This document shows positions 4,529 to 25,418 of a DNA stretch of 34,517 nucleotides, piece by piece. The position numbers were made by a program, and so were the translations under genes. The first letter of the stretch is position 1. Each line of letters starts with the position of its first letter. The notes beneath the pieces were generated by a model. The model made no database searches. It saw only the letters and a program-made list of their open reading frames with translations, and was not told the DNA's origin. The DNA comes from Rickettsiales bacterium (lineage in GTDB: Bacteria; Pseudomonadota; Alphaproteobacteria; Rickettsiales; Rickettsiaceae), in NCBI GenBank assembly GCA_947456795.1, contig CANGTI010000004.1, positions 1 to 34,517 on the forward strand, in the 5' to 3' direction.

Positions 4529-6073
4529 ATGAATAAAAGCTCGAATATTGTTTCTAATGTAAAGAAAATCTTTGCTGTTTTGGTTTTTTCCTTGATTACG
4601 TATTCAGGGTACAGTACTTGGAGCGCGTACCAGTACTCTAAGTCTTCTTCTCCTTTTGAGATGGGAGCTTGTAGGCTTGGATCTTATGGGCTTGCTTTGC
4701 TGCAAAGCCCAAAGGGTCAAGAAGATTTGTTATGTATGTTGCATTTAAATGGCTCCTTGAATCTGGAAAGGGTGTGGCATGATTTGCACGGAATGGGACA
4801 AATTAATGATCCTAAAAGAGCATTTCAATCTATAAGCAATGCTTTATTCGTTGCGGGTGCTAATCAAGAAGATTCTGGATTGCTTAATTTGAAATCCCTC
4901 AGAAAGAATTTCTTAAAAGACTCTGGTTTGGATGCTCAAGATGCTGCGGATCTTATACTTTATATGGTTCAAAATTCATTTAATCGTAAAATTGGTCAAG
5001 AAAGATACGAAATTGCTTTGCATCAATGGACTCAAGAGAGTAAGGATGCATATTTGAAAGCAGCAAGGGGCCTGCATCTGATTGACAGAATAGAACCAAA
5101 ACAACAAGTGTATCATCAGTGTTGGGTTTGTGGCGCATCAAGGCTGGGTCTTTTAAAAAGACTTATTGACACGGAGTACATGCTCAATAAAAAAGGGATT
5201 AAGATTACAGATAAAAAGTATGTTTTAACTGGCAATAGAGAGCTCTGGGCTAATATTGATGGTATTGAGCCTAGTATCCGTGCAGCACTTTTGAAGGCTA
5301 AGGAAGAAAAATTGGATTTGGACGAATTCTCCGTTGTCTCCCATGCGGGAGAGTCAAGAACCCTAGAAGGGAAAGAGTATATTGAATATCTAGCAAAAAT
5401 TAATGGAGTAACTTTGAATTTGACCAAACCTTTTGTGAGTTGTGAAGATGCCAATCAATGTGCTGTTGGTAGGTTTCCTGGTAGAGAATATCCAAATTAT
5501 CAGGGAAAAGTTGAAAAAAGGTTGAACGAAACTTTAATGGTTAAAGATCTTATTAACAGCTTTTTTCCTGATAAGCAATTTTACCTAATTGATAGCCCTG
5601 GCATTGATGGCAAGCGCCCAGATACTTTGAGTACGACGATGGAAGCGGCCCAGAATTTGGCAAGAGAAATCTCTGAAGGTAAATTTGGAGAGGAGAAGAG
5701 TTTTCAAATTTTCTATCAAAGTAACAATCCTTTCATAGAGCGTCAGGCTTTAGTTGCTCAGCAAGCAATTGATGAAGCATTAAAAGAATTTCACTTAGAT
5801 TCTAAAGGCATTAGGGTTACCGTAGAAGGTGTGGGTTTTGCTTGTAATGATGGTTCTCCAGAATTGATTGCCGCAGAGCTTGCAGCTTTAATTGCAGAAA
5901 AATGGCAATTATGTAAGAAGCATGATGCCATTTCTGGTGTGCATCCAAAGAGAGATATAGCAAATTTGCTTTTTCAGAAAAGGAGCAATGATGTCACAGT
6001 GCCTTTGCTCCCGGTCTTTAAATCTGGTTGGAGCCTCAAGGGTTGGCTAGTAGCATTTTGGGACAATCGTTAG
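4529..6073 (+). CDS. Uncharacterised membrane-anchored protein, possibly DUF218 (SanA/YdcF)-like
   Basis: A 514-residue protein I do not recognise with confidence. Residues about 13-33 form one hydrophobic segment after a basic start, so it is likely exported and anchored, or secreted. The middle and C-terminal order of motifs resembles DUF218 proteins (ElyC/SanA/YdcF): a 'CWVCGASRLGLLKRLI' strand followed by 'KKYVLTGNRELW' (an sGgx-like second strand), an acidic 'NETLMVKDLI', then 'RPDTLSTTMEAAQNLA' and 'QIFYQSNNPFIERQALVA', which resemble the family's S-x-N-T-x-E-N helix and the final T-s-x-(F/Y)-H-x-x-RA element. Key His and Asn residues are replaced, so this is only a structural resemblance. 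The N-terminal 200 residues match nothing I know. No Shine-Dalgarno sequence is visible; the start follows a stop-rich divergent region. It is divergent from priA and convergent with fabZ (37-base gap). Confidence 0.75.
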   Translation: MNKSSNIVSNVKKIFAVLVFSLITYSGYSTWSAYQYSKSSSPFEMGACRLGSYGLALLQSPKGQEDLLCMLHLNGSLNLERVWHDLHGMGQINDPKRAFQSISNALFVAGANQEDSGLLNLKSLRKNFLKDSGLDAQDAADLILYMVQNSFNRKIGQERYEIALHQWTQESKDAYLKAARGLHLIDRIEPKQQVYHQCWVCGASRLGLLKRLIDTEYMLNKKGIKITDKKYVLTGNRELWANIDGIEPSIRAALLKAKEEKLDLDEFSVVSHAGESRTLEGKEYIEYLAKINGVTLNLTKPFVSCEDANQCAVGRFPGREYPNYQGKVEKRLNETLMVKDLINSFFPDKQFYLIDSPGIDGKRPDTLSTTMEAAQNLAREISEGKFGEEKSFQIFYQSNNPFIERQALVAQQAIDEALKEFHLDSKGIRVTVEGVGFACNDGSPELIAAELAALIAEKWQLCKKHDAISGVHPKRDIANLLFQKRSNDVTVPLLPVFKSGWSLKGWLVAFWDNR

Positions 6074-6110
6074 TGTGTTTAAAGACAACATTAATGTTAT
6101 TGATCATTTT

Positions 6111-6542
6111 TTAGTCGGTATCACCTGTCATTGCACTGATTGATGCCGACGCTGCTTTTTTATCATTTACGGTGGCCATTGCATCAAATTTCCACATTGG
6201 TCCCTTTTGTTGAATGATTTTGACTTCTAGTACTAATATGTCTCCGGGTGTGACAGTCTTTCTAAATCTTGCGTGATCTATACCAACGAGATATACGATT
6301 TTGGACTGACTTTGTACAGTTTTGGAGGCAAGGATTGCCGCCAGTTGTGCCATGGCCTCTATTATCAGTACTCCTGGCATTACTTTATGGGATGGAAAAT
6401 GTCCAACGAAATAGGGTTCATTTGCAGAAACATTCTTTATTCCTTTGGCGAATGCACCTATTTGTAGCTCGATAACTCTATCGACCAGTAAAAATGGATA
6501 CCTGTGAGGCAGAATCTTTTCAATTTCGTCGATGTTGATCAT
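6111..6542 (-). CDS. fabZ: 3-hydroxyacyl-[acyl-carrier-protein] dehydratase FabZ
   Basis: A 143-residue hot-dog-fold enzyme that removes water from (3R)-hydroxyacyl-ACP to give trans-2-enoyl-ACP in fatty-acid elongation. HRYPFLLVDRV near the N-terminus and GHFPSHKVMPGVLIIEAMAQ are family signatures, with catalytic His48 and Glu62. The length is normal. In many proteobacteria fabZ sits between lpxD and lpxA; here it stands alone, back to back with fabI (151 bases between starts), which carries out the next step of the cycle. No Shine-Dalgarno sequence is visible upstream of the ATG. Confidence 0.96.
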   Translation of the reverse strand: MINIDEIEKILPHRYPFLLVDRVIELQIGAFAKGIKNVSANEPYFVGHFPSHKVMPGVLIIEAMAQLAAILASKTVQSQSKIVYLVGIDHARFRKTVTPGDILVLEVKIIQQKGPMWKFDAMATVNDKKAASASISAMTGDTD

Positions 6543-6630
6543 AAATTAGGGGCAATTAATAAATTTAAAGGCGAGTTTATTGTGAGTTTTGGGTCTAGTT
6601 AAGTCAAGTATTTTGCCTTCCTTCCTTGAG

Positions 6631-6659
6631 TTGACTGGCCTTTAAATATCTATTAAAAT
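6631..6659 (+). promoter_or_regulatory. Candidate sigma70 promoter of fabI
   Basis: TTGACT (6631-6636), a 17-base spacer and TAAAAT (6654-6659) give near-consensus -35 and -10 boxes about 35 bases before the fabI ATG at 6694. Confidence 0.6.
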
Positions 6660-6693
6660 CCTTTCGATATATTAACTATAGTGACTCTTACTT

Positions 6694-7500
6694 ATGTTGT
6701 TAAAAGGAAAAAGGGGTTTAATTACAGGTGTTGCAAATGAAAGATCGATTGCGTGGGCAATTGCTAAGATGGCAAGTGATCATGGGGCGCAAATAGCTCT
6801 TTCTTATCAAGGAGATATGTTAAGTAAGAGAGTTATTCCCTTAGCAGAAACGATTGGATGCCAACATCTTTATCAAGTAGATTTTTCAAATCAGGAATCT
6901 GTTGATTTGATGTTTGATTCTTTAGAAAACGATTGGGGTCAGTTGGACTTTGTTCTGCATTCGATTGTTTTTGCTCACAAAGAAGACTTAACTGGGCGAT
7001 ATCTCGATACTCCTTTTGAGCATTTTAAAGATTGTCTCAGTATTTCGTGTTACTCAATGAACGCTTTAGTTCGCGGAGCTGAAAAATTAATGCACAATGG
7101 GGGCAGTATAGTCACTCTTACGTACCATGGAGCTAGTAAAGTAGTCCCTTCTTATAATATTATGGGTGTTGCAAAGGCAGCCCTGGAATCCAGTGTGCGG
7201 TATATCGCCTCTGAGATTGGCAAAAATGGTATAAGGGTTAACTCAATTTCTGCTGGACCTATAAAAACCTTAGCAGCAAGTGCGGTACGAGGCATGAGCC
7301 ATATGCTAAAAAAAATACCTCATGTTGCACCCTTAAGGCGTAACATTAATGGAGAAGATGTAGCTGGTGCAGCTCTATATTTCTTCTCTGATCTGTCCAA
7401 AGGTGTGACCGGCGAAAATCATTATGTAGATGCTGGATACAATATTATGGGATTCTTAGATGCTGTTGAAGAGATCAACAAAATCCAAGACGCTGAGTAA
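6694..7500 (+). CDS. fabI: Enoyl-[acyl-carrier-protein] reductase (NADH) FabI
   Basis: A 268-residue short-chain dehydrogenase-type enoyl reductase that completes each elongation cycle. The N-terminal 'GLITGVANERSIAWAIAK' is the FabI form of the nucleotide-binding motif, clearly unlike FabG. The catalytic residues are Tyr144, Tyr154 and Lys161 in TYHGASKVVPSYNIMGVAK, at almost the same positions as in E. coli (Tyr146, Tyr156, Lys163). Length matches the family (about 262). It has its own candidate promoter and no visible Shine-Dalgarno sequence. FabI is the target of triclosan and isoniazid-like drugs in other bacteria. Confidence 0.96.
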   Translation: MLLKGKRGLITGVANERSIAWAIAKMASDHGAQIALSYQGDMLSKRVIPLAETIGCQHLYQVDFSNQESVDLMFDSLENDWGQLDFVLHSIVFAHKEDLTGRYLDTPFEHFKDCLSISCYSMNALVRGAEKLMHNGGSIVTLTYHGASKVVPSYNIMGVAKAALESSVRYIASEIGKNGIRVNSISAGPIKTLAASAVRGMSHMLKKIPHVAPLRRNINGEDVAGAALYFFSDLSKGVTGENHYVDAGYNIMGFLDAVEEINKIQDAE

Positions 7501-7627
7501 GATAGAAAAGGCAGTGCTTAGTGGAGATTTTTTTGCTAATTTACGCCTTTTGAAAGATCTTATTGCACTTAAGCTCTTTCTTCTATTTGAAATGCCACTT
7601 TAAATATGTACAATCAAAGTCAGCTGT

Positions 7628-7657
7628 TTGACTGAGGCATGGAGTCATTTTTATGCT
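7628..7657 (+). promoter_or_regulatory. Candidate promoter of tRNA-Ser
   Basis: TTGACT (7628-7633), an 18-base spacer and TATGCT (7652-7657), ending 16 bases before the tRNA 5' end. The spacing fits transcription starting close to the mature 5' end. Confidence 0.5.
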
Positions 7658-7673
7658 TTCTTTAAACTTTTTT

Positions 7674-7767
7674 GGAGCGGTGGCTGAGTGGCTGAAAGCG
7701 GCGGTTTGCTAAACCGTTGTACGGTGTAAAAATCGTACCGGGGGTTCGAATCCCCCCTGTTCCGCCA
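7674..7767 (+). tRNA. tRNA-Ser (anticodon GCU)
   Basis: A 94-base cloverleaf with a long variable arm, as expected for serine tRNA. The acceptor 5' strand GGAGCGG pairs with CTGTTCC (7757-7763, with G-T pairs); the discriminator is G and CCA is encoded (7765-7767). The anticodon loop TTGCTAA sits on a GCGGT/ACCGT stem, giving GCU, which reads AGC/AGU. The T arm contains GGTTCGAATCC. It stands alone between fabI and mutL. Confidence 0.97.
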
Positions 7768-7916
7768 GTAAAACTTTATGGTTTATTCTTCCTGAGAATC
7801 TATCACCTAATCTGCGTGTTTTGACTGCGTTTTCTATAGAGTAAATTTTAGATAGACAGCTGGGTTATTTATATCATCGTATTGATATTATAGGCATAGG
7901 TTGTAAATATTTTTTA

Positions 7917-9671
7917 ATGTCTAGTATTCACAGACTATCAGATTCTACGATTAATCTTATTTCGGCTGGAGAGGTCATTTTAAATCCTGCTTCTGTTGTA
8001 AAGGAGCTTGTTGAAAACTCAATTGATGCTGGCGCTACCAAAATAGAGATTTGGTTAGAAAATGGAGGCAAGACTTTTATTGTCGTAAAAGACAATGGCA
8101 TTGGCATGTCTTTGCAAGACTTACGTCTTTGTGCGCAGCGATACACTACTTCTAAATTAGATCAAGCGGATCTGTATAATATTGCTACTTTAGGTTTTAG
8201 AGGGGAGGCTTTAGCGTCAATTTTGGCAGTGAGTAGGCTTTGTATTACAACGCGATATCATAAAGGGCATGATGCCTACAAACTCAACGCACATTTAGAT
8301 TTTCAAATTCAGTCCGCAGTTTTTGATGTTGGTACAAAAATAGAAGTCAGAGATTTGTTTTATACGACTCCGGCAAGGTTGAAGTTTTTAAAATCTGACA
8401 AAATTGAGGCATCTACGTGCCTTGGAGTGGTAAAAAATATTGCTCTTGCGCATCCATTTATATCATTTGCTTGTTACTTAGATCATAAGGAAGTGTTTCA
8501 TGCTTCTTGTTCTAAAGATTTATCTTTCAGAGACTGTTTTCGTTCCAGAGTTTCTCTAATTTTGGGACAAGATTTTGTGAATTCATCAATAGAAATGAGT
8601 TTCAAAGAAGGACTTACCCATATTTCAGGTTTGATTAGCATTCCCACTTACACGCGTGCTAGCAGTTTCGAACAAATATTTTTTGTTAACTCTCGCTTCG
8701 TAAAAGATCCGATTTTAAAATCATGCCTAAAGCGAGCCTATAGTGATGTTGTGCCTTATGGGCGTCATCCAGTTGCTGTTGTTATGTTGGAAATAGATCC
8801 ATATTTTGTTGATGTCAATGTGCACCCAGCAAAAACAGAGGTTAGATTTCGTGCTCCTAAAGATGTCTCATATCTACTTGTAGAAGGTATTAAAAATCTG
8901 ATTAGCAGTAGTGCAAATGTATCTATAGAGAGGGCGTATTCAGATGTGACATTTGATTGGCCTTCCTCAGAAACAAGGTACAGTATTGCAAACAATTTTA
9001 ATGAGTCGGAAAGTTTATTTGAATCTAGTCCTCCTTACCTTCAATCGTTGCAACAAAGCCCTCAAGAACTAGAAGATGGGAATAGTTTTCCCTTAGGTAG
9101 TGCCTGTTTTCAATTCAATGGGACATTTATAGTGAGCCGCACTGCAAATAGCGTCGTGATTGTTGATCAACATGCAGCTCATGAACGTATTGTTTATGAG
9201 TCTGTTAAAGAATCTTTTTTGCATAAATCCATTGAGAGTCAGCCTTTATTGGTTCCTGTTAAAATACAAATTGCTTCAGATCTTTCGTATAGTTATTTTC
9301 AAGAAAATCAAAACATATTGAGGCAATTTGGGTTACATATAGAGGTGGATGATGAAGAAAAGGTTGTGCTTGTGCATGCAATTCCATTGGTACTTTTGGG
9401 CACTGATATTGCTTTTTTAATCAGAGATTTAGAAGATGATTTTTTAGCCAGCAAAGAGTCTCAAAGTCTTCAAGATAAAATCGAATACATTTGCAAAACT
9501 TGGGCATGTCACAATTCGATTAGAGCAAATAGGTCTCTTAGTGTTGACGAAATGAATCAGATACTGCGCATGATTGAGTCAACCAGCAACGCAGGACAAT
9601 GCAATCACGGCAGGCCTAGTTATGTTAAATTTACTAGCAATCAAATTGCTAAGTGGTTTGAACGTACCTGA
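7917..9671 (+). CDS. mutL: DNA mismatch repair protein MutL with endonuclease motif
   Basis: A 584-residue mismatch-repair ATPase that links MutS to strand excision. The N-terminal GHKL ATPase shows ISAGEVILNPASVVKELVENSIDAGA, KDNGIGM and LGFRGEALASI. After a variable linker (about residues 335-395) comes the C-terminal dimerisation domain. It contains DQHAAHERIVYE (Asp417, Glu423, Glu428), which fits DQHA-x2-E-x4-E, the metal-binding nuclease motif of MutL proteins from bacteria without MutH; the partner motifs ACHNSIR and CNHGRPS are also present. So it probably nicks DNA itself. The start MSSIHRLSD is typical for the family. The ATG lies directly after an AT-rich region with no Shine-Dalgarno sequence. 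Confidence 0.96.
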   Translation: MSSIHRLSDSTINLISAGEVILNPASVVKELVENSIDAGATKIEIWLENGGKTFIVVKDNGIGMSLQDLRLCAQRYTTSKLDQADLYNIATLGFRGEALASILAVSRLCITTRYHKGHDAYKLNAHLDFQIQSAVFDVGTKIEVRDLFYTTPARLKFLKSDKIEASTCLGVVKNIALAHPFISFACYLDHKEVFHASCSKDLSFRDCFRSRVSLILGQDFVNSSIEMSFKEGLTHISGLISIPTYTRASSFEQIFFVNSRFVKDPILKSCLKRAYSDVVPYGRHPVAVVMLEIDPYFVDVNVHPAKTEVRFRAPKDVSYLLVEGIKNLISSSANVSIERAYSDVTFDWPSSETRYSIANNFNESESLFESSPPYLQSLQQSPQELEDGNSFPLGSACFQFNGTFIVSRTANSVVIVDQHAAHERIVYESVKESFLHKSIESQPLLVPVKIQIASDLSYSYFQENQNILRQFGLHIEVDDEEKVVLVHAIPLVLLGTDIAFLIRDLEDDFLASKESQSLQDKIEYICKTWACHNSIRANRSLSVDEMNQILRMIESTSNAGQCNHGRPSYVKFTSNQIAKWFERT

Positions 9672-9765
9672 TTTGTAAGAATCTGCGTAAGAGCAGTAGA
9701 AGTATTTTCGTAATTTTTATATAAGTGACTCAGTAAAGCCTAAAGTGTTTGGAGTAGATCTTTCT

Positions 9766-9820
9766 AAAAACAGATTGAGCGCTAGTCCAGCAGAAAAATT
9801 CTGATTGACTAAGCGCTCAA
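9766..9820 (-). terminator. Long hairpin terminator downstream of the ATP/ADP translocase gene
   Basis: TTGAGCGCT (9775-9783) pairs with AGCGCTCAA (9812-9820); after a one-base bulge AGTC pairs with GACT, and after a short internal loop CAGAA pairs with TTCTG around an AAA loop. That is about 18 base pairs. On the minus strand the stem is followed four bases later by five Ts (9770-9766). It begins 28 bases after the translocase stop. On the plus strand no T run follows, so it serves the minus strand better than mutL. Confidence 0.65.
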
Positions 9821-9848
9821 ATGTATCGGTAAAGAACTTTCTAAATCT

Positions 9849-11378
9849 TTAGTTATCGGAGCGTTCTTCTTGCATTTTTTGTTCAAATAGACGAGATAGT
9901 CCAAGAACAGAGTACAACCAAAGCAATGTTATTATTATAGATAGTATTCCTAGCAATGGCGCTATGCTCATTTGAGTGGCAGTAGGAATTAGAACGAACA
10001 ATATCTGTTGTATTACACCTGAACTAGATTTTGCCAATCTTCCTCCAACTCCATCAACTGCGGCTTTGCCTTGAGTCTTGATGCTGTCATCAAGGGGAAT
10101 GTAAGCCATTTCTTTTGTTGGATCGAAAAGAGAATACTTTGCAGATCTTACTATTATGATCAATCCAGCACCTATGAATACAGCAAGAGCAACTGGACTT
10201 AAACCAAAAGCGCTTAGTAAAACTGATGCTTGTTCTTTAAAGATAGCAAGGAGGAAGAAGGAGCTTCCGGCAACCAGCACTACTAAAGGAGTAATCAGAG
10301 CGCATGTTTTCCAGCTCAGTCTTCTTGTAAGATTTGCACCAGCTATCATGAGAAAAGCTGCAAATACACCGGTCGCTAGGGAGTAGGCTCCATAAAACTC
10401 AGTCATACCAGCTTGATTACCCATGAAAAGTAATTTCAGTTGATTTTTGAATGTTGCATCAACAAAACTTATGGTCATGTTGTATCCAAAAATCAGAAGA
10501 GCAATGAATCCTAGGTATTTGGATGTCAGTATTATTCTTAAGCCTTCTATGAAGCCTAATTTAACCTTTTTCTTTTTCTTTGCTCCAATTTCTTCAGGAT
10601 TGTAGAGCTCTTTATCTGTAAGTACATTTTTTTGTATCCAGTTGTGCAAGTATAAAATTACACAAAAAGCTATGGACAAAGAAAGGAATACCCAATTCAA
10701 AATTTTAGGCCATTTTCCTTCTTCTACAGAGATGTGGGAATGCATTCTTGTTAGAATAATTAGCAAAGGTCCAGATATCATTAATCCGAAATTTCCAACT
10801 AACCCAAATAGAGGATACATTCTTTTTGCTTCTCTAACTCTGGTAATCTCATTTGCAAGCTGCCAAAATATGACTGAAATTCCTACGCTTCCCCATAACT
10901 CCGAAAATATGTAAAACAAAGACAGTCCCCAGTTACCAATAAGGGCAACAATGTGACGTGCTCTAGGATAGGCGATTGCCATTTTGTCTATCCATTCTGG
11001 AGATGCATAAAGAAGATCGGCGTTTGGAAAAACGACATAGCCCAGAGTTGCAAAAACTCCGAAAAAGAATAATACAGTGCTTCTAAATAATACGGGCTTT
11101 GAAAGTGTGGTAGATAGCTTTCCGTAGCATGCCATCAATATTATCACACAAGGAAGGGTTCCCCATGCTTTTAAAAAACTGAAAGATTCTGAACCGCATC
11201 CATGAGCGGTGAGCACTAAAACATCTTTGATGTCTCTCAATATTGTGTAATTAAAAAGTACAAAAAACATCATCAAGGCCAATGGCAGTACTTTCTTTGC
11301 CTCCTTTCTGGTTACGGGCCAAATGTATGCACGTAGTCCAGTAAATTTAACTTCGTTTGTTTGATCGCTAATAGACAT
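9849..11378 (-). CDS. tlc: ATP/ADP translocase (Tlc/NTT family)
   Basis: A 509-residue polytopic inner-membrane protein that exchanges host ATP for bacterial ADP or imports other nucleotides. The N-terminal 'YTILRDIKDVLVLT' after the first membrane segment, 'ELWGSVGISVIFWQLANEITRVREAKRMYPLFGL' region in the middle, and 'NVLTDKELYNPEE' loop match the Rickettsia and Chlamydia translocase family; about 11-12 hydrophobic segments are visible. The family is found in obligate intracellular bacteria and plastids, making this the best lifestyle marker in the window. Whether it is a true ATP/ADP exchanger or a broader nucleotide importer cannot be decided. Only this copy is in the window, though Rickettsia have several. 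It has a consensus promoter, a hairpin-plus-T8 leader and a strong terminator, so it looks like a one-gene unit. No Shine-Dalgarno sequence precedes the ATG. Confidence 0.95.
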   Translation of the reverse strand: MSISDQTNEVKFTGLRAYIWPVTRKEAKKVLPLALMMFFVLFNYTILRDIKDVLVLTAHGCGSESFSFLKAWGTLPCVIILMACYGKLSTTLSKPVLFRSTVLFFFGVFATLGYVVFPNADLLYASPEWIDKMAIAYPRARHIVALIGNWGLSLFYIFSELWGSVGISVIFWQLANEITRVREAKRMYPLFGLVGNFGLMISGPLLIILTRMHSHISVEEGKWPKILNWVFLSLSIAFCVILYLHNWIQKNVLTDKELYNPEEIGAKKKKKVKLGFIEGLRIILTSKYLGFIALLIFGYNMTISFVDATFKNQLKLLFMGNQAGMTEFYGAYSLATGVFAAFLMIAGANLTRRLSWKTCALITPLVVLVAGSSFFLLAIFKEQASVLLSAFGLSPVALAVFIGAGLIIIVRSAKYSLFDPTKEMAYIPLDDSIKTQGKAAVDGVGGRLAKSSSGVIQQILFVLIPTATQMSIAPLLGILSIIITLLWLYSVLGLSRLFEQKMQEERSDN

Positions 11379-11386
11379 AACTGAAT

Positions 11387-11422
11387 AAAAAAAAGTTGTT
11401 ACTACTATAAGTAGCTTTTTTT
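11387..11422 (-). promoter_or_regulatory. Terminator-like hairpin in the translocase leader (possible attenuator)
   Basis: Eight As (11387-11394) plus G lie opposite C plus seven Ts (11415-11422), around a CTACT-ATA-AGTAG hairpin (11402-11414). Read on the minus strand, as in the translocase mRNA, it is an A7-hairpin-T8 structure whose T run ends 8 bases before the ATG. It lies between the consensus promoter and the start codon, so every transcript would carry it. It could attenuate transcription or mask the ribosome site. On the plus strand it could also act as a terminator. Confidence 0.5.
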
Positions 11423-11447
11423 GTTAATGAATCAAGAATAGGGCACG

Positions 11448-11477
11448 ATTATATCTGTTCTAGAGCCCAAGTGTCAA
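11448..11477 (-). promoter_or_regulatory. Consensus sigma70 promoter of the translocase gene
   Basis: On the minus strand TTGACA (11477-11472), an 18-base spacer and TATAAT (11453-11448): both hexamers match the sigma70 consensus at every base. It lies about 70 bases upstream of the translocase ATG. It is the best promoter I saw in the window. Confidence 0.8.
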
Positions 11478-11600
11478 TAGGCTAATAAATTAGAGGCAAT
11501 AGCGTGGCGTCGTTGGTATTTTTTATTGATTATGCTGAACTAAGGGTTTGCAGGATTTGCATTTTAAATATTGTAATTTGATTAAATTGATATTAATTGC

Positions 11601-11628
11601 TTGAAAATAACCACTTATAGATTATATC
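11601..11628 (+). promoter_or_regulatory. Candidate promoter of the small secreted protein
   Basis: TTGAAA (11601-11606), a 16-base spacer and TATATC (11623-11628). It lies upstream of two 10-codon ORFs and the gene at 11735. Confidence 0.35.
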
Positions 11629-11654
11629 TTTTTTCAAAGGGGGTGTTTAGGATT

Positions 11655-11724
11655 ATGAGTAATAAAAAAGAAAAGGGAAGGAGTTAAATATATGAAGAAA
11701 TTATTAACCAAAATTTATTATTAG
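11655..11724 (+). other. Two 10-codon ORFs with Shine-Dalgarno sequences in a leader
   Basis: ATG at 11655 opens MSNKKEKGRS, stopping at 11687; ATG at 11692 opens MKKLLTKIYY, stopping at 11724. The first follows AAAGGGGG; the second is preceded by GGAAGGAG at 7-8 bases, the strongest ribosome site in the window, which itself overlaps the end of the first ORF. The gene at 11735 starts 10 bases after the second stop. They may be translated leader peptides, a decayed signal-peptide gene, or chance. A near-match to a CtrA site (TTAA-N7-TTAT, 11704-11718) lies inside the second ORF. The rest of 11379-11734 holds the two divergent promoters and the translocase leader hairpin. Confidence 0.3.
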
Positions 11725-11734
11725 GTAGAGATTT

Positions 11735-12178
11735 ATGAGTCGAATTATTTTTGTTTTGACTGCAGGTTTGTTTTTGAGTTCTGCTGCTTTTGCGCAAATT
11801 GCGCCTTTATATTCTGAGGTCATTCAGATGCCAAGGCTGAATCAAAATGACAAGCCACAAACTGAGGATTATGAACACGTCATCAATGATTATACCAAGT
11901 ATCTTGCCAGTGTTTCTAAGGCAGTTAAAGAAGAAGAAATGCAGCATCTTACAGAGATGTCCAAAATTGATAAGGAAATTGCCAAACTGCGTCATAAAAA
12001 AGCAGTTTTAAATTCCAAACTTTCTGAGGCAGTGAGAAATCATCAAAATACAAAAATGATGTTTGAGCAAAAGCTGAGCTCTTTGTCAAAATTTAACAAG
12101 TATTCTGGTGACAAGGTATTAAAAAATTATAAGAAGAGCAAAAGAAATACGGAAACTTTGAAAACATCCGAGGAATAA
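11735..12178 (+). CDS. Small secreted coiled-coil protein, unknown function
   Basis: A 147-residue protein with a clear signal peptide, MSRIIFVLTAGLFLSSAAFA, with likely cleavage before QIAP (AFA motif). The mature part is very rich in Lys, Glu and Gln; residues about 50-115 have a heptad-like pattern typical of a coiled coil (VSKAVKEEEMQHLTEMSKID, then KEIAKLRHKKAVLNSKLSEA). The tail is basic and polar. Size and export suggest a periplasmic or surface protein; it resembles Skp/OmpH in general build but lacks the Skp N-terminal signature, so I assign no function. A weak AGGTAGAG sequence lies before the start. It is divergent from the translocase gene and convergent with secA. Confidence 0.8.
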   Translation: MSRIIFVLTAGLFLSSAAFAQIAPLYSEVIQMPRLNQNDKPQTEDYEHVINDYTKYLASVSKAVKEEEMQHLTEMSKIDKEIAKLRHKKAVLNSKLSEAVRNHQNTKMMFEQKLSSLSKFNKYSGDKVLKNYKKSKRNTETLKTSEE

Positions 12179-12279
12179 ATTAACGATTTGCTTTGTTTCG
12201 GATTGCAACAGATCTATAAACTTAGTCAGTGATGCACCTGCTTGGCGCTAAATTTGAAGTGACTTGTTGGGGGCAATTT

Positions 12280-14883
12280 CTACAATCCTTTTTTTACTCC
12301 ATGGCAATGTTTATATTTTTTGCTTGATCCGCAAGGGCAGGGCTGATTTCTTCTGATGGTTGATAGATTTTTGCCTTGCCCCGTTATGTTTAAACTTTCA
12401 TTTAGTGAGTCTTCCATTTCCATGAGGCACACTCTTTGTACGAAAAGTGTGTTAAATCTTTCAAGCATTGTTTTAAAAGAATGAAAAGCTTCGGACTTAT
12501 ATTCATTTAGAGGATCTTTTTGTGCGTAAGCTCTATTTTGTATAGCTTCTTTGATTACCGCTAATTCAGCGATATGTTCTCTCCAAACTTGATCTAGTGA
12601 GCTTATTTGCACTATCTTTGTTGAGTAATGGACCTCGTATTGCCCCCATTTTTCTTCCTTTATAAGATATTCCTGTTTTATTGCTGAAATTAATGCTTCT
12701 GAAAATTTTTGAGCTTTAATGGTTTCTTCAATGTAGTCTTTTGACATGTCGATACCAAAAGTTGTCTTACATTTTTTTAGCAATTGATCTTTTGTTTCTG
12801 GAATGATGCAATCTGCTTCGTCTGTAAAGTTTTCTATTGTGCTGCATATTAGGTCTTGAGAAGTTTCAAAAAAAGCACTTTTGGCAGCCTCAGACTCTAA
12901 GAAAGAATCTCTTTGTTGGTATACTAAAACCCTTTGTTCATTTATTACGTTGTCAAATTTTAATAAATGCTGTCGTGACTCGTAGTATTGATTTTCGACT
13001 CTTTTTTGAGCGGTAGCTATGGCCATGTTAGCAAGGGGATGGTTTATAGATCCTCCTTCTGGATTTAAACGCTTTCTTAAAAAAGCTATATTTTTTTCAG
13101 AAGCAAAGAGCTTGATTAAATTGTCGTCAAGCGATAAGAAAAATTTGGAAACTCCGGGATCTCCCTGACGTCCAGATCTACCTCTTAACTGATTATCTAT
13201 GCGCCTACTATCGTGTCTTAAGGCTCCAATTACAAATAAACCCCCCGCGTCTAACACCATTTTTTTTTCTACAATACATTGCTGACAAAGTTCCTGATAT
13301 TTTTCTTGTTTTTCTTTTTCAGTAATGTTTGGATTGTTGGCTAGATAGGCTGAAAACATCATTTTAGCATTGCCTCCAAGCATTATGTCGGTTCCTCTAC
13401 CTGCCATATTTGTAGCTATTGTTACCCTTTTAAGGCAACCGGCTTGTGCTATGATTGATGCTTCTTGGGCGTGATTTTTGGCATTTAACACACAATGGAG
13501 TATCTGATTTTGGGATAGCAATTGAGACAACGCTTCTGATTGTTGAATATCCCCCGTGCCTAACAAAATCGGTTGCCCGATTTGATTTTTTTCTTTTACT
13601 AGTTGCAGTATTGCCTCATGCTTTGCATCTGTTGTAGTGCAAATCATATCGTCTTGGTCTTTACGCTGTAGAGGTTTATGAGTAGGTATCGAATGTACGC
13701 TTAGGTTGTATATTTTTTTGAATTCCTCAGCTTCTGTTGCTGCAGTTCCCGTCATACCCGCAAGGTGAGTATATGTACGAAAGTAATTTTGAAAGGTGAT
13801 TGAGGCGATTTCTTCATTTTCTTCTCTGACTGGCACATCTTCTTTTGCTTCAATTGCTTGATGAAGTCCTCCACCGTATCTCCTGCCTTCAGAAATTCTT
13901 CCAGTATTTCTGTTAATGCAAAGGACTCTTGAGTCTTTTACTATGTAATCTACATCTTTGTGAAATAGGGTGCGGGCTCTGAGGCTTTGATTGATTTGAT
14001 ATACGAGGTTGGCATTTTCCATGTCGTACAGTTCGGTGTTTTGTTTCAGCAATCCGGCATTGTGTAACAGGTCTTCTATTTTGACTGTGCCTTCTTCAGA
14101 AAGAGAGGCGGTTCCCATTTTTTCATCAACACAGTAATGTGCTTTATCTAATGTAGATACTATTGAATTGATCGCTAACCACGTTGCCAAATTTTCTCTG
14201 GAAGGGCCTGATAAAATCAACGGAGTTCTTGCCTCATCTATTAAAATAGAATCTATTTCATCTATGCATGCTGCATGCAATTTTCTTTGAACTTTTTCTT
14301 TGACGTCATATTTTGTGTTATCTCTAAGGAAGTCAAAACCCAACTCATTATTTGTGGCATAAGTGATGTCGCATTGATAAGAGGCCTTTCTAGACTCATC
14401 ATCCATACCAGAGAGTATGCATCCTACTGAAACTCCTAGAAATTGAAATATTTCTCCCATCCAAGATGCGTCTCTTTGAGCAAGGTAGTCGTTTACTGTT
14501 ACTATGTGCATACCCTTTGATTCTAAAGATCTAAGATAAGCAACGGTTGTTACAACTAGTGTTTTTCCTTCACCTGTTGCCATTTCTGCTATTCCTCCGT
14601 TATATAGAACCAATCCTCCAAGTAGTTGTACATCAAAATGTCTCATATTAAGGACTCTTTTTGAGGCCTCCCTTACTGTTGCAAAAGCCTGTGGCAATAT
14701 TTGTGTTAGACTTAAACCTTGTGTTAAATCTTTTTTAAATTGATTTGTTTGTTCTTTGAGTTGTTGGTCGCTCAAAGAAGCAAATGCGCTTTCTAATGAA
14801 TTAATAATTGCGACCGTTTTTTGAAATTTTCGCAATCTCTGATTTTCAGAAGAGCCAAATATTTGTCTCAGTATGGATAACAT
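12280..14883 (-). CDS. secA: Protein translocase subunit SecA
   Basis: An 867-residue ATPase that drives unfolded preproteins through SecYEG. The Walker A motif is MATGEGKT (101-108), the DEAD-type box is in DEIDSILIDEARTPLILSG, and 'RGTDIMLGG' and 'QLRGRSGRQGDPG' are motifs of the second nucleotide-binding fold. The C-terminus ends with the zinc and SecB-binding tail CPCGSSKKYKHCHG (C-x-C-x8-C-H), so SecB-type delivery is possible. The length is close to the E. coli protein (901). It is last in a minus-strand run after prfB, with 104 bases between them that contain an inverted repeat. The start codon lies after a weak GAAAGAA sequence. Confidence 0.97.
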   Translation of the reverse strand: MLSILRQIFGSSENQRLRKFQKTVAIINSLESAFASLSDQQLKEQTNQFKKDLTQGLSLTQILPQAFATVREASKRVLNMRHFDVQLLGGLVLYNGGIAEMATGEGKTLVVTTVAYLRSLESKGMHIVTVNDYLAQRDASWMGEIFQFLGVSVGCILSGMDDESRKASYQCDITYATNNELGFDFLRDNTKYDVKEKVQRKLHAACIDEIDSILIDEARTPLILSGPSRENLATWLAINSIVSTLDKAHYCVDEKMGTASLSEEGTVKIEDLLHNAGLLKQNTELYDMENANLVYQINQSLRARTLFHKDVDYIVKDSRVLCINRNTGRISEGRRYGGGLHQAIEAKEDVPVREENEEIASITFQNYFRTYTHLAGMTGTAATEAEEFKKIYNLSVHSIPTHKPLQRKDQDDMICTTTDAKHEAILQLVKEKNQIGQPILLGTGDIQQSEALSQLLSQNQILHCVLNAKNHAQEASIIAQAGCLKRVTIATNMAGRGTDIMLGGNAKMMFSAYLANNPNITEKEKQEKYQELCQQCIVEKKMVLDAGGLFVIGALRHDSRRIDNQLRGRSGRQGDPGVSKFFLSLDDNLIKLFASEKNIAFLRKRLNPEGGSINHPLANMAIATAQKRVENQYYESRQHLLKFDNVINEQRVLVYQQRDSFLESEAAKSAFFETSQDLICSTIENFTDEADCIIPETKDQLLKKCKTTFGIDMSKDYIEETIKAQKFSEALISAIKQEYLIKEEKWGQYEVHYSTKIVQISSLDQVWREHIAELAVIKEAIQNRAYAQKDPLNEYKSEAFHSFKTMLERFNTLFVQRVCLMEMEDSLNESLNITGQGKNLSTIRRNQPCPCGSSKKYKHCHGVKKGL

Positions 14884-14912
14884 ATGTTCTTTCGATTAGT
14901 AAAATTTAGATT

Positions 14913-14943
14913 TAGTCTTTGACCCCTAAGAGTCCAAAGACTA
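14913..14943 (-). promoter_or_regulatory. Hairpin between prfB and secA
   Basis: TAGTCTTTG (14913-14921) and CAAAGACTA (14935-14943) form a perfect 9-bp inverted repeat with a 13-base loop that can pair further with a bulge. It lies 29 bases upstream of the secA start. The minus strand continues AATCTAAATTTTAC, not a clean T run, so it is either a weak prfB terminator or a structure in the secA leader. Confidence 0.4.
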
Positions 14944-14987
14944 ATCCTTATATATTAATATTTAAACTTTATTTTGCTATTTAGCTT

Positions 14988-16098
14988 TTAACCGTTTTGC
15001 TTGTTTGCAGAGTAAATTGCAAGACTTTTAGACACAAAATTTTCTAAATCTCCATCAAGCACTTTTTGTATGTCTACTTCCTCGTGACCAGTTCGTACAT
15101 CTTTTATGAGCTGATAAGGTTGTAACACATAAGAGCGAATTTGACTGCCCCATCCTATTTCTGGTTTAGCTTCATGCCCTTGTTGTAATTGATCTTTTTT
15201 CTTTTGTATTTCTAGCATGTGTATTCTTGCCTTGAGCATATTCATTGCTATTTCTTTATTTTTATGTTGAGACCTATTGTTTTGACAGTGCACAACTATT
15301 TTGGTTGGCAGATGAGTAATGCGCACTGCTGAGTCCGTAGTGTTTACATGTTGACCTCCGGCTCCAGAAGATCTGTATGTGTCGATTTTGAGGTCCTGTT
15401 CATTGATTTTGACTTCGATTTCATTTTCTATTTCTGGGTAAACCCAGATACTAGAAAAGCTTGTCATACGTTTTCCGCTGGAATTAAATGGAGATATTCT
15501 TACTAACCTATGGACTCCTGACTCGGTTTTAAACCATCCATAGCTATTTTTCCCTGTAATTTTTACTGTACAAGACTTAATTCCAGCATCTACTCCGTCT
15601 ATTGAGTGAATTATTTCGGACTTGAGTTTTAGTCGTTCAGCAAATCGCAAATACATTCGTAACAGCATAGAGGTCCAGTCGTTGCTTTCTGTACCTCCAG
15701 CGCCCGAATTAAAGTCTATAAAACAGTTATTGGAGGAGGTAGCATCTGAAAACAGGCATTCTGTTTGTAAAACACTAGCTTCGTTTTTTAAGACAAGCAT
15801 TGATGCTAATAATTGCTCAGAAAGTGCCTCATCCTTTTCATTTTTGAGCATTTCTGCCATTTCTTGGCACTCTGTAAAAGCCTTACAAAGACCATCTACT
15901 CTATTCAACAAAAAGTTTATTCGAGCTTTTTCCTTTAATAATATACGAGCCTTAAGATCGTTATTCCACAGATCGTCTTTTTTTTCTTCTTGCTCTATAT
16001 CTGCTAGTTTTTTTCTTAAAGATTCGAGGTCAAAGACACCTCGTAATTAAGGAAACTGAATTTTTTATAGAATCTTGTAATGCTTCAAAATTTTCCAT
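14988..16098 (-). CDS. prfB: Peptide chain release factor 2, with programmed +1 frameshift
   Basis: Release factor 2 ends translation at UGA and UAA. The gene runs from ATG at 16098 in one frame for 22 codons (MENFEALQDSIKNSVSLITR then CL), meets an in-frame TGA at 16032-16030, and continues in the +1 frame (DLESLRKKLADIEQEEKKDD) to the stop at 14988, for 369 residues in all, close to the family's 365. The main frame contains the tripeptide anticodon SPF (in VRISPFNSSG) and the catalytic GGQ (SSGAGGQHVNTTDSAV). An annotation starting at 15911 would lose about 62 residues of the N-terminal domain. It lies 62 bases after ftsY on the same strand. A weak AGGTAGAT sequence precedes the start. Confidence 0.96.
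16030..16042 (-). promoter_or_regulatory. prfB programmed frameshift signal
   Basis: On the minus strand GAGGTG (16042-16037), one base, then CTT TGA C. The slippery CTT-TGA-C is identical to the E. coli signal. The internal Shine-Dalgarno-like GAGGTG is perfectly complementary to the 16S rRNA end and, aligned to E. coli AGGGGGTAT, keeps the same register before CTT. Autoregulation by RF2 level is established for this signal. Confidence 0.93.
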
Positions 16099-16160
16099 TG
16101 TTTATCTACCTGATTTTGTTTGAATTTAATTGATAATGAATTGTACACGTACTTTTGTTA

Positions 16161-17090
16161 CTAATTATTGGGCAAATAGGTCTGGGCAAATAGGTCGTTA
16201 GAAAAAGATTTTGCATCAAACTCTATCAAATCCTGCATTTTTTCTCCTATGCCCGTAAAATATATTGGCAATTTGTATTGATTCGCAATTCCTATGATTG
16301 CACCTGCTTTTGCGGATCCATCTATTTTAGTGAGAATTAATCCGTTAATGTTGACATTTTGTTTGAAGATATCTATCTGAGTAAACGCATTTTGACCCGT
16401 TGAAGCATCCAATATTAAAATATTGTGCTTTACTGACCCGTTAGTTAAATTATTTGACAATATTTTGTTAATTTTTTTTAGCTCTTGCATCAAATTAGCG
16501 TTGTTACTCATTCTTCCTGAGGTATCTATTAACAGTAGATCATAATTTTCGTTTTGTGCTTTTTGCAAAGCCAGGTATGCAACTCCTGCTGGGTCTTTTA
16601 CTGAGTCTGTTGCAAAAAAGTCGGTTTCTGATTTTTCTGCAAGTGATTGTAGTTGCTCAATTGCTGCGGCTCTAAAAGTGTCACAGGCAGCTATTAAAGT
16701 TTTATAACTCTGCTCTCTAAATCTTACTGCTAATTTTCCTATTGTAGTTGTTTTTCCATTTCCGTTAGTTCCACAAAGCAACACCACATTTACTGTGCCT
16801 TTTACTATGTTTAAATTCTGTTGGCATGGCAATAGTATTTCATACACTAATCTTTTTAATAATTCCAAAGGCGTTGTTTGGGAATGTTTTATATCGATCT
16901 TGAGATGCTTCATTAATGTTCGCGTAGTGTTGATGCCAAGATCTGCTTTTAATAAAATTTTCTCCAGCAACTCTTCATCTTGAGGGCTAAAAACTTGATT
17001 GTGTCCGAGCAAGTTTTTCAAAGAGGCGCCCAGGGTTTGAGAGGCTTCTTGTAAAGTTTTTACAAAGCTGCCAAATAAAGAATTCTGCAT
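16161..17090 (-). CDS. ftsY: Signal recognition particle receptor FtsY
   Basis: A 309-residue SRP-type GTPase that receives ribosome-nascent chain complexes at the membrane. The N domain (about residues 1-95) is followed by the G domain with GTNGNGKT (107-114), DTFRAAAIEQL, DTSGRM and TKIDGSAKAG. No methionine-rich M domain follows, which separates it from Ffh. The acidic A domain of E. coli FtsY is absent, as in many alphaproteobacteria. A 14-bp tandem duplication at the 3' end replaces the original stop and adds six residues (TYLPNN) after DLFAQ. It lies 29 bases downstream of the TPR gene on the same strand. Confidence 0.95.
   Translation of the reverse strand: MQNSLFGSFVKTLQEASQTLGASLKNLLGHNQVFSPQDEELLEKILLKADLGINTTRTLMKHLKIDIKHSQTTPLELLKRLVYEILLPCQQNLNIVKGTVNVVLLCGTNGNGKTTTIGKLAVRFREQSYKTLIAACDTFRAAAIEQLQSLAEKSETDFFATDSVKDPAGVAYLALQKAQNENYDLLLIDTSGRMSNNANLMQELKKINKILSNNLTNGSVKHNILILDASTGQNAFTQIDIFKQNVNINGLILTKIDGSAKAGAIIGIANQYKLPIYFTGIGEKMQDLIEFDAKSFSNDLFAQTYLPNN
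16169..16196. repeat. 14-bp tandem duplication at the 3' end of ftsY
   Basis: TGGGCAAATAGGTC occurs twice, head to tail (16169-16182 and 16183-16196). Fourteen is not a multiple of three, so the second copy is read in another frame. Without one copy the gene would read ...DLFAQ then TAA, a typical FtsY ending. Confidence 0.95.
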
Positions 17091-17119
17091 GACGCTTTTA
17101 AATACAAAAGTGTAATTGA

Positions 17120-19777
17120 TTAATTTTTCGGTAAGTTGGTGCTCAAAAGTTCTGATTTATAGGTCTCTAATAAATCATTGAGTTGGTTAATTTCTTGGAA
17201 ATGGATAAGTTTTTGATATGTCTCTAAGGGGTTATTTGAGGCTAAATTTGTTAGACTTGTAGAGATGCGAGTGTCCACTTTTGCAAGCTCTGCTGTAAAC
17301 ATTTTTAGTAATGAAGTCTCTTTTTGCATCATGCAACAAATACCAAATCTTAAAATATCTTGTTCTGTGGCTTTAGAGATTTGAGGGTTTTTATGTGTCA
17401 CGATACTCAGTAAGTAGGGTTTGATTAAATCAATGTATTCTTTCCATCTGCTTGATCTAAAGAAAATTTCTTTTTTTAGAATAAAACTTTCTTTACTAGG
17501 GTCATGGTCCACATACTGTAGCGCAAGATCATACTTATGCATAAGTGTTGCAGCAATTGATTTTAGTCGTAATCTTTTTTGATGTTTTTCAAATGAAGTA
17601 GTTTCGTTATAAAGAGTGTTGAGTAAGGACAGTGCTTTTTCTTGTTTGTTATTGATAAGCAGCACGTATGCTAAATTTTCTGCCAAGCCTTCTTTTACTT
17701 TGCCAACTGTTCTGTATTGAATCTGATGCTCTAGAATTTCTTCTGCTTGATCTAGTAGTCCCAAATCTATCAGATTGTTGGCAATTGAAAGTGCTATAAA
17801 ATCTCCTTTGCTTCCTGTTGGCATTAGATCTTCAAACTCATAAAAAATGGCTAAGCGCCTCAAAGGATCCAGACTTGCTAAAAAACTATTACTTAAAAAG
17901 ATTTGTGTATAAATGTCTTCAATACGGGGGGTGCACAAAGGATCAAAATCTAAGAAATCTTTGACGTATTTGAGTATACGTAGTTCCGCAGTAAGGTCAT
18001 TTTGTTCGTGATACAGATCGGCAAGATACATTAAAAAATCCTGCTCTACTTGATTATCATACCTATCTATTTGAGAGCTTTCTAGCTCTTTTATGGCATC
18101 TCTCAGAGAGATTTGTTGATCTTGATACCTAAGTTTAGTCAGATTTTTCTTTAGCATCATTCTATTGGACCTTTGCACGGGCTTTGTATCCAAACTTTCT
18201 AAGACTTTGTATGCAGCCTTTTTATTACCCATTTGATAATCAAGCATTGCTTTGTAGTAAAGCAATTTTTCTTGCACGGATTCTATTTCTGGGGATCGTA
18301 ACTTTGATAGCAATGCCTTTGTATCTGAGAGCTTATTTTCTTTGCAATATTCTTCTAATGCAGCAAATGTCAGTTTCCAATATACTTCGTCATGGTATTC
18401 GGATATGAAATTGTCCAGATCAAACAAAATTGATTTTTTCATGTCATTTTTGTTAATGACATTTTTCCAAAAAAGCATTTCTCTCTTATTTGTTCTTTTT
18501 TGATTGTTAATCATATTTATTGTCTTGTGGGCAGTCTCTATATCGTTGGTCATGTAGTTAGCCACGGCATACAGCAGTTGTACTTCCATTTCTTTTGCAA
18601 ACAATTCGCTATCTTTAAAATTATCTAGCAGATGAGCAGCTTCGTGATAATGGCCTTTGCTAAAATGTAAGTTTGCGAGTCTTTTCGTACAAAGATATTG
18701 AATTTCTTGCTTGTCTGAGGCCTTGAGGGCTACTTCTAATTCATGTTTTTGATTGAGAAAATTACCCTCATAATGCCAAGGTAAGTCTGACTCTATGTGA
18801 ATATTCGCATTTTCTGATTCTGCTTTTTTTACTATGATTTGGTTTGCTTTATCTATGATAAGACATGGCTGAGCTTTCCAAACAAATACAAGACCCTGAA
18901 GAGATTTTTGCAAATGAAAATCTTCAAAGACTTGTTCCTGATTTTGTCCAAAGACCAAGTCTTTTACTGTGACTATGTTTATGTGTTCCTTGGTTTGCTC
19001 GTCTTGTACTTTGCAGATTTTGTAGTCTGATAGAATCTTCCAAATGTGTTGATCTTTGCACTCTTCATATTCAATATCATTTTGTTTGGTTATCTGAGAT
19101 GCGTCATTGCCAAGTAAAATTTCTACTGTTTGATTTGGACCGTATCGTAATTTTTGATACTCTAGTTTGCCTATATCACATGCAAGTATTAGAGCATCTT
19201 GCGATTTAATGCTTCTGAATTTTAGTTTATCTTTTGACCCAAAAGTGAGTGATTTTACGTTTCCGGTCATTGCAATCCATAGCTCGGTATTTCTCTTAAA
19301 AATCGCCAATGAATCAAAAGAATGAGGAATGCTTATGACTGGATTTGTGTTATCATCTGCGTAAGTGTAGACAAGATTTTTGTTTTGGGGTGCTTTCAGA
19401 GGCTCTTTTTCTGTATATAGGTTGATCAAAGAGTGCGTTGTGCCTGTTTTAGTTTCTGCTCGATAATGTTTGTTAGGTAGCATTATTTTAATAGCTCTTT
19501 TATCTTTTTGAGTGTACTGGATTGATGCGAGTTTATTAAAATTTGCATCTGTATTGATGTGACTAATTGCTCTATAAAAACGGGCAGTGATAGAATTTTT
19601 TTCGTAACTAAATACTGGAAAAAGGTCTTTTTCGTGGAAAAAATTTATAGACAAAGCTTGATCTGATTTTTGAAGCGTAATATTAATTGTTGCTGCAAAG
19701 ATTTGTGTAGATGTGAGCAACCACATCAAAACGAGAGTAGATTTAAAAAATTGTTTCAAGTCTTTGGGCTGGAACAT
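17120..19777 (-). CDS. Large exported protein with TPR-like repeats
   Basis: An 885-residue protein with a signal peptide (about residues 1-28, ending QIFA). Residues 29-110 form a beta-rich region (TINITLQKSDQALSINFFHE and following) that resembles the AMIN-like N-terminus of large alphaproteobacterial TPR proteins. From about residue 340 it becomes helical with degenerate tetratricopeptide-like units such as LANLHFSKGHYHEAAHLL, MLDYQMGNKKAAYKVLESL, LIDLGLLDQAEEIL and YVLLINNKQEKALSLL. No catalytic motif is visible. It is probably a periplasmic scaffold; whether it binds peptidoglycan or an envelope complex is inference. It is first in the run leading to ftsY and divergent from hscA (168 bases). 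Family assignment is by pattern only. Confidence 0.8.
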   Translation of the reverse strand: MFQPKDLKQFFKSTLVLMWLLTSTQIFAATINITLQKSDQALSINFFHEKDLFPVFSYEKNSITARFYRAISHINTDANFNKLASIQYTQKDKRAIKIMLPNKHYRAETKTGTTHSLINLYTEKEPLKAPQNKNLVYTYADDNTNPVISIPHSFDSLAIFKRNTELWIAMTGNVKSLTFGSKDKLKFRSIKSQDALILACDIGKLEYQKLRYGPNQTVEILLGNDASQITKQNDIEYEECKDQHIWKILSDYKICKVQDEQTKEHINIVTVKDLVFGQNQEQVFEDFHLQKSLQGLVFVWKAQPCLIIDKANQIIVKKAESENANIHIESDLPWHYEGNFLNQKHELEVALKASDKQEIQYLCTKRLANLHFSKGHYHEAAHLLDNFKDSELFAKEMEVQLLYAVANYMTNDIETAHKTINMINNQKRTNKREMLFWKNVINKNDMKKSILFDLDNFISEYHDEVYWKLTFAALEEYCKENKLSDTKALLSKLRSPEIESVQEKLLYYKAMLDYQMGNKKAAYKVLESLDTKPVQRSNRMMLKKNLTKLRYQDQQISLRDAIKELESSQIDRYDNQVEQDFLMYLADLYHEQNDLTAELRILKYVKDFLDFDPLCTPRIEDIYTQIFLSNSFLASLDPLRRLAIFYEFEDLMPTGSKGDFIALSIANNLIDLGLLDQAEEILEHQIQYRTVGKVKEGLAENLAYVLLINNKQEKALSLLNTLYNETTSFEKHQKRLRLKSIAATLMHKYDLALQYVDHDPSKESFILKKEIFFRSSRWKEYIDLIKPYLLSIVTHKNPQISKATEQDILRFGICCMMQKETSLLKMFTAELAKVDTRISTSLTNLASNNPLETYQKLIHFQEINQLNDLLETYKSELLSTNLPKN

Positions 19778-19879
19778 TTGAATTGTTGATTTGAAAATAC
19801 TCTAATGTGGCGCATACAATCAAGGAAGATGCATGTCTATAGAATGTACTTTGCAACCGCAAATAGATAAAGAGTTAGG

Positions 19880-19907
19880 TTGCAGCTTTAATAAGGAATT
19901 GTATAAA
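19880..19907 (+). promoter_or_regulatory. Candidate promoter of hscA
   Basis: TTGCAG (19880-19885), a 16-base spacer and TATAAA (19902-19907), 38 bases before the ATG at 19946. Confidence 0.55.
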
Positions 19908-19945
19908 TCTCCTTCACGTTAGGTTCTTAAAATTTAAAATAAAAC

Positions 19946-24980: not shown

Positions 24981-25418
24981 CTAAGATGCTAGATGACCCT
25001 CAGTTTGGATGCCAAGATGGTCTTGATATTTTTCGGCGTGTTTTTCAAGTAACTCATTTATTGAATATTGAGCTCTTGATTCCTGAGTAAAAAGATGAAG
25101 GATGACATCTTCAAGGTCTACTATTATCCAGCTGCTACCCTTCATGCCTTCGCAATTTGCGGAATAATTGGAAACTTTTTTGATTAAGTAGCTTACATGG
25201 CTTGCTGTAGCTCTAAGCGTTGGTTCTGTGTAATGTTCTGCAATTATTATATACTGAGCCAAATTATGGTTTGCAAATACCTCAATATTAGATGCCCTTC
25301 TTTCGTTGAGAATTTCTAATACTGAATCTTTTAATTGTTCCACGCTGTCTATAGGCTGCTGCAATTTTTCTGCGTTTAAAGAATAGGGTGTTTGCCTATA
25401 AGAGATGAAATCTTCCAT
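24981..25418 (-). CDS. rsfS: Ribosome silencing factor RsfS (Iojap/YbeB)
   Basis: A 145-residue protein of the family that binds ribosomal protein L14 and blocks subunit joining when nutrients are short. The C-terminal half carries the signature: 'EGMKGSSWIIVDLEDVILHLFTQ' (the EG-x-x-x-x-x-W-x-x-x-D motif) followed by 'ESRAQYSINELLEKH'. The N-terminal region is about 25 residues longer than in typical members (about 105-120 aa). An AGAGGT Shine-Dalgarno sequence lies 5 bases before the ATG, one of the few good ones here. It is often next to nadD; that gene is not in this window. Confidence 0.88.
   Translation of the reverse strand: MEDFISYRQTPYSLNAEKLQQPIDSVEQLKDSVLEILNERRASNIEVFANHNLAQYIIIAEHYTEPTLRATASHVSYLIKKVSNYSANCEGMKGSSWIIVDLEDVILHLFTQESRAQYSINELLEKHAEKYQDHLGIQTEGHLAS

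Follow-up and report, generated by a model that had tools for sequence, protein, structure and literature searches.

In the 34,517-nucleotide window, the whole stretch of DNA that was analysed, we found a tlc gene on the minus strand (9849..11378, 509 aa, ATG at 11378) whose product is, by its match to two family models, a TLC-family NTP/NDP exchange transporter, i.e., a putative ATP/ADP exchanger (TIGR00769, 439.5 bits at a cut-off of 387.2; PF03219, 506.3 at a cut-off of 21). The window's genome, G000, comprises 573 kb in 5 contigs and belongs to a reduced, intracellular Rickettsiaceae-type bacterium, which tlc would allow to exchange ATP with its host. Its closest relative is a sister species, the uncultured Rickettsiales bacterium C-4_bin-230 (G001), with a tlc that is 70% identical, and all comparisons within the genus are based on these two genomes. 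Candidatus Sneabacter namystus (G018, hereafter Sneabacter) is the next relative with 55% identity in tlc, and the tlc at locus L042 is 51% identical. The gene and the features before it are as follows.

9849..11378, minus strand: tlc, NTP/NDP exchange transporter of 509 aa, family models TIGR00769 and PF03219
11472..11477, minus strand: -35 hexamer TTGACA, read directly, identical in the sister species
11448..11453, minus strand: -10 hexamer TATAAT after an 18-nt spacer, read directly, hexamer and spacer identical in the sister species
11440..11447, minus strand: G+C-rich discriminator CGTGCCCT (CGCTCTCA in the sister species), read directly, its role being putative
11439, minus strand: likely transcription start, the first A downstream of the discriminator and 9 nt from the -10 hexamer, predicted from sequence
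11415..11422, minus strand: A7-G (A7 at 11422-11416, G at 11415), possible 5' outer arm of the hairpin, the run not kept in the sister species
11402..11414, minus strand: leader hairpin CTACT-TAT-AGTAG (CTACT 11414-11410, TAT 11409-11407, AGTAG 11406-11402), CTACT-CAA-AGTAG in the sister species, from alignment and shuffles
11387..11394, minus strand: T8, possibly contributing 7 T, together with C 11395, to a 3' outer arm, the run not kept in the sister species

The tlc promoter, TTGACA-N18-TATAAT at 11477-11448 of the minus strand, has the hexamers and the spacer (16-18 nt) of a sigma-70 promoter, reaches a consensus score of 12/12, and its -10 hexamer ends 69 nt before the ATG. The first-pass annotation, which had described an exact promoter about 70 bases before the start codon and called it the strongest in the window, is borne out on both points, and the latter even extends to the whole genome, where this is the sole exact match with spacers of 16-18 nt. 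The genome of the sister species likewise holds a single exact match with these spacers, again before its tlc, while the Sneabacter genome holds none. Since a dinucleotide model predicts about 0.7 exact matches by chance in the whole of G000, the lone match proves nothing by itself; judged from the sequences, the weight lies in its position before tlc and in the fact that the sister species has its only match there as well. Among sampled genes, defined by the first ATGs of ORFs of at least 150 codons, which are not proven starts, tlc scored 12/12 and all others at most 10 (86 genes in G000, with the same outcome for 63 in G001); shuffled upstream regions did not exceed 10 in either sample. In the intergenic alignment of the two species, CTATTGACACT and GATATAATCG belong to the longest stretches of identity. 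A strong promoter thus almost certainly drives tlc.

Further promoter-like sequences were seen in G000. Between the divergent genes, a conserved block on the plus strand (11601-11628) reads by eye TTGAAA-N16-TATATC, with TTGCAA-N16-TATATC as its counterpart in the sister species, and from its sequence this perhaps serves as promoter for a small exported-looking protein at 11735-12178. A second TATAAT is found within the block on the minus strand, at 11626-11621. The only other TTGACN-N16-18-TATAAT in G000 is located at L125 (G000:C3:22683-22719) and is followed by CCTGCAACT, and the reversed control pattern also has 1 match in this genome.

For the family as a whole, a genome-wide count of TTGACW-N16-18-TATAAT in 40 genomes yielded 201 matches as compared to 256 for the reversed pattern (summed), so that most such strings have to be regarded as chance, and gene-anchored controls were therefore used instead. 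With a rule that requires an exact TTGAC, 16-18 nt and a -10 hexamer with A at position 2 and a score of at least 4/6, we found such a promoter before tlc in 20 of 27 distinct Rickettsiaceae leaders among the matches listed (28 loci, with several genomes per genus), or, by our own tally, in 12 of 18 genera. The corresponding figures among the matches listed were 0/18 for recA (20 loci, 2 of which were dropped for having no ATG) and 5/22 for fabI (22 of 22 loci), each set containing about one genome per genus and being counted irrespective of a possible operon position. At the sequence level, TTGAC promoters are common before tlc in Rickettsiaceae, and much commoner than before recA and fabI. 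No comparable promoter was found before the Sneabacter tlc or before that of L042, where the best score was 8/12. A tlc paralogue, present in G000 (L120), G001 (L122) and Sneabacter (L123), shows by eye TTGACT-N17-TAGAAT or TACAAT, each followed by a G+C-rich stretch.

Downstream of the -10 hexamer, the minus strand continues with CGTGCCCTA and, further on, with A7-G, the hairpin, TAACAAC, T8 and 8 nt up to the tlc ATG. This order of elements had been noted at first pass and was confirmed by reading; it had been taken for the build of an intrinsic terminator, from which regulated read-through, possibly sensitive to the nucleotide level, was proposed. Such a transcription attenuator would have a parallel in Rickettsia prowazekii, whose terminators share the order of A run, stem and T run and are described as host-dependent in their efficiency (PMC3027695). 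The stem of the tlc leader consists of five pairs, two of them G-C, and falls short of the stable, G+C-rich stem of terminators, and the 7 nt TAACAAC separate it from a T run that should follow directly, so that the leader fails a terminator rule with a permitted gap of up to 2 nt and passes only if gaps of up to 7 are allowed. A terminator scan of positions 5000-20000 did not call the hairpin. The leader folds no better than its shuffles (z -0.22), a 5-bp hairpin being present in 21500 of 40000 shuffled leaders, and the stem has an energy of -3.8 kcal/mol, where two terminators of R. prowazekii have -10.0 and -10.9. In the sampled genes, terminator-like signals behind stop codons are no more frequent than expected by chance (1/86 in G000 with a shuffle mean of 1.6, and 0/63 in G001 with a mean of 2.2), and in the window only two tRNAs, and nothing in the tlc leader, match Rfam at the gathering score. 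The T run, moreover, is lost in the sister species.

With a weak stem that is missed by the scan and folds like shuffled sequence, the leader element is very probably not a terminator, and an attenuator is a highly improbable explanation; control by read-through thus lost its support. The expectation that stem and T run would be kept in close relatives held for the stem, which recurs in the sister species, and failed for the A and T runs, which do not. Because both runs are absent there, the variation in homopolymer length that had also been suggested likewise gains no support as a switch. A low-energy fold of the G001 stretch (z -3.03, with 1 of 200 shuffles as good) was rejected as a candidate, as it draws on discriminator bases upstream of the likely start.

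The CTACT/AGTAG stem starts 33 nt after the -10 hexamer in G000 and 34 nt after it in G001, with the loop changed from TAT to CAA and the rest of the leader strongly diverged. In 11 of 40000 shuffle pairs an identical stem arose at positions that differed by no more than 2 nt, and this particular stem arose in 3 of 40000 shuffles of the G001 leader, which carried one extra 5' base in the test. Its letters are unchanged, so there is no compensatory change within the stem in a comparison of two genomes. The flanks of the hairpin can pair in both species, with different letters in each: 8 pairs in G000 (A7-G with C-T7) and 6 pairs in G001 (TAAATA/TATTTA), a pairing that was reached in 341 (G000) and 273 (G001) of 20000 flank shuffles. 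The A and T runs may, on this weak indication, represent the arms of a bulged stem; in folding, G000 gains hardly any stability from the outer arm.

We consider it rather likely, from the conservation of its sequence and position, that the leader hairpin is functional. A plain constitutive promoter with an incidental leader, in which the shared stem is residual similarity without function, would be in keeping with the fact that a hairpin alone is expected by chance, that the flanks differ and that two genomes of the genus were compared, but it would have to account for an identical stem in the same place of an otherwise strongly diverged leader, as found in so few shuffle pairs; we therefore regard it as a serious though unlikely explanation. 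The hairpin could alternatively be read as DNA, with CTACT-N3-AGTAG as an operator immediately past the start site, to which a dimeric regulator would bind. A perfect 13-bp palindrome in the same place in both species with a changed centre is what such a site might look like. The five other places with CTACT-N3-AGTAG (one in G000, three in G001, one in Sneabacter) are, however, all inside ORFs, which leaves no further intergenic copy in these three genomes and no regulon, so that a palindrome regulon was rejected, and a possible outer pairing with different letters in each species fits RNA better. An operator is thus an improbable alternative to a structure in the leader RNA, which would contribute either to stability or to keeping the start region, which has no Shine-Dalgarno site, open.

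No Shine-Dalgarno-like 4-mer precedes the tlc ATG, as the first reading of the sequence had stated. This is nothing special in G000, where it is the genome-wide rule. Such a 4-mer is in place in 1 of 22 window genes, and in samples of first ATGs of ORFs of at least 150 codons, which are not proven starts, it was counted in 8/86 starts of G000 (9 and 0 in two control stretches), 2/63 of G001 (5 and 3), 3/68 of Sneabacter (7 and 4) and 7/50 of G031 (4 and 1). With one 16S match per genome, G000 and G001 share GGATTACCTCTAACAG and Sneabacter has GGATTACCTAAAGAAG, whereas two other members of the family, G010 and G023, show GGATTACCTCCTT and have kept the canonical CCTCC. The 3' tails of the 16S without the CCTCC anti-Shine-Dalgarno are ACCTCTAACAG in G000 (L131) and G001 (L130) and ACCTAAAGAAG in Sneabacter (L129). 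By its 16S sequences, the window's genus has lost the canonical anti-Shine-Dalgarno, and so has Sneabacter, which explains leaders without Shine-Dalgarno sites. Since starts of this kind are the rule in the lineage, the tlc start is no sign of the special translation control that had been considered.

The only window gene with a Shine-Dalgarno-like 4-mer (25394-25418, minus strand, ATG at 25418) reads AGAGGTA-CGT-ATG, in which AGAGGTA is fully complementary to UACCUCU in the altered 16S tail. As for a new Shine-Dalgarno motif that would match the altered 16S, TAGGT/TTAGG precedes 9/86 starts in G000 (controls 2 and 1), 3/63 in G001 (0 and 1), 8/68 in Sneabacter (4 and 1) and 2/50 in G031 (0 and 1); these numbers are small, and the G000 tail fits the motif incompletely.

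A translation switch, in which the leader hairpin would alternate with a longer, AUG-covering fold, was also weighed. Once 15-30 nt of coding sequence are included, the hairpin of G000 indeed yields to a fold of this kind, with a hairpin probability of 0.14-0.28 and the first two AUG bases unpaired with a probability of 0.03-0.26, and starts without a Shine-Dalgarno site have been described as dependent on little local structure (PMC3121790). The alternative fold of G000, however, has an energy like that of shuffles (z -0.34), and in G001 the hairpin stays in place while the AUG is partly covered by a weak fold of another kind. Such a switch is therefore quite unlikely. Our preferred reading, a strong tlc promoter combined with a conserved leader element that is not a terminator, has a probability of about 75%.

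The promoter itself has a G+C-rich discriminator of the kind found in rRNA-type stringent promoters. Across 21 distinct tlc promoters, G+C content is 0.46 in the 8 nt that follow the -10 hexamer, compared to 0.12-0.32 in other windows from -60 to +32; the promoter-picking rule is blind to these 8 bases. The survey covered 37 tlc loci, of which, besides the 21 counted, 7 were without a TTGAC promoter and 9 were dropped as near-identical (by difference), and its Wilcoxon p of 2.4e-5 is too good, since the loci are related. G+C after the -10 hexamer averages 0.37 in 22 promoters that score at least 10/12 and belong to other genes, whose starts were again taken as first ATGs of ORFs of at least 150 codons, and by our own count 0.51 in the subset of 9 from G000 and G001, so that a G+C-rich discriminator may be a general trait rather than a sign of tlc-specific control. 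The rRNA promoter of G000 and G001, by eye TTGACT-N17-GATAAT-CCCTCATG, is of the same type as the tlc promoter, with a poorer match to the consensus. G000, G001 and Sneabacter have each retained a frame of about 700 codons with a RelA/SpoT domain, as well as a zinc-finger protein of the DksA/TraR type. In E. coli, G+C-rich discriminators are associated with open complexes of low stability and with inhibition by ppGpp/DksA, and transcription from rRNA promoters begins 9 nt past the -10 hexamer (PMC9304144, PMC7822876), the same distance as that of the first A after the tlc discriminator.

The tlc promoter would appear to provide high and mainly constitutive expression of the importer. Its rRNA-like discriminator could cause the open complex to be short-lived, in which case tlc output and rRNA synthesis would both follow the initiating nucleotide and ppGpp/DksA. 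Control by ppGpp or by the initiating nucleotide is nevertheless doubtful, because the promoters of other genes are G+C-rich as well. A link to the nucleotide level is conceivable through the discriminator at initiation, and not through a terminator, and the best description of the sequence is a strong housekeeping promoter that is possibly rRNA-like in its control. More speculative, and in our view improbable, is the full scheme, in which the Rickettsiaceae ATP importer would be wired like an rRNA gene, with a promoter that senses the cell's own initiating nucleotide and ppGpp, and in which the conserved hairpin of the window's genus would add a further level of control to an mRNA translated by ribosomes without the canonical anti-Shine-Dalgarno. 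If rRNA-like wiring proved true, energy import and ribosome synthesis would rise and fall together. The ATP importer stands out in a very small genome by having the one exact promoter, whose discriminator suggests a possible coupling of energy import to growth that would need no dedicated regulator.

The tlc of R. prowazekii belongs to the same transporter family; according to the titles of Cai and Winkler (1993, 1996, 1997), it is reportedly regulated at the transcriptional level, so no claim of novelty is possible for tlc regulation as such. Literature searches on tlc control gave no title on a tlc leader or promoter among the matches listed. The R. prowazekii terminators RP703-RP704 and RP826-RP827 resemble the tlc leader in their order of A run, stem and T run, but are reported with nine-pair stems flush with the T run and about -10 kcal/mol (PMC3027695), in contrast to the five pairs, the 7-nt gap and the -3.8 kcal/mol observed here. 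E. coli rrn P1-type (stringent) sigma-70 promoters are described with near-consensus hexamers, a G+C-rich discriminator and a start 9 nt past the -10 hexamer (PMC7822876, PMC9304144), as is likely for tlc; the tlc promoter differs in driving a transporter gene and in its 18-nt spacer, the likeness being one of sequence. Searches on loss of CCUCC gave no title on Rickettsiaceae among the matches listed, which is no proof of absence, and the main text of PMC10783764 has no word beginning with 'Rickettsi'. Bacteria without CCUCC and with few Shine-Dalgarno sites include Hodgkinia and Fokinia according to that source (PMC10783764), and another gives 128 taxa that lack the consensus (PMC6107228). 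Like Hodgkinia and Fokinia, the bacteria studied here, one genus and Sneabacter, both Rickettsiaceae, combine an altered 16S tail with no clear Shine-Dalgarno enrichment, and they thus add members to a known but uncommon state.
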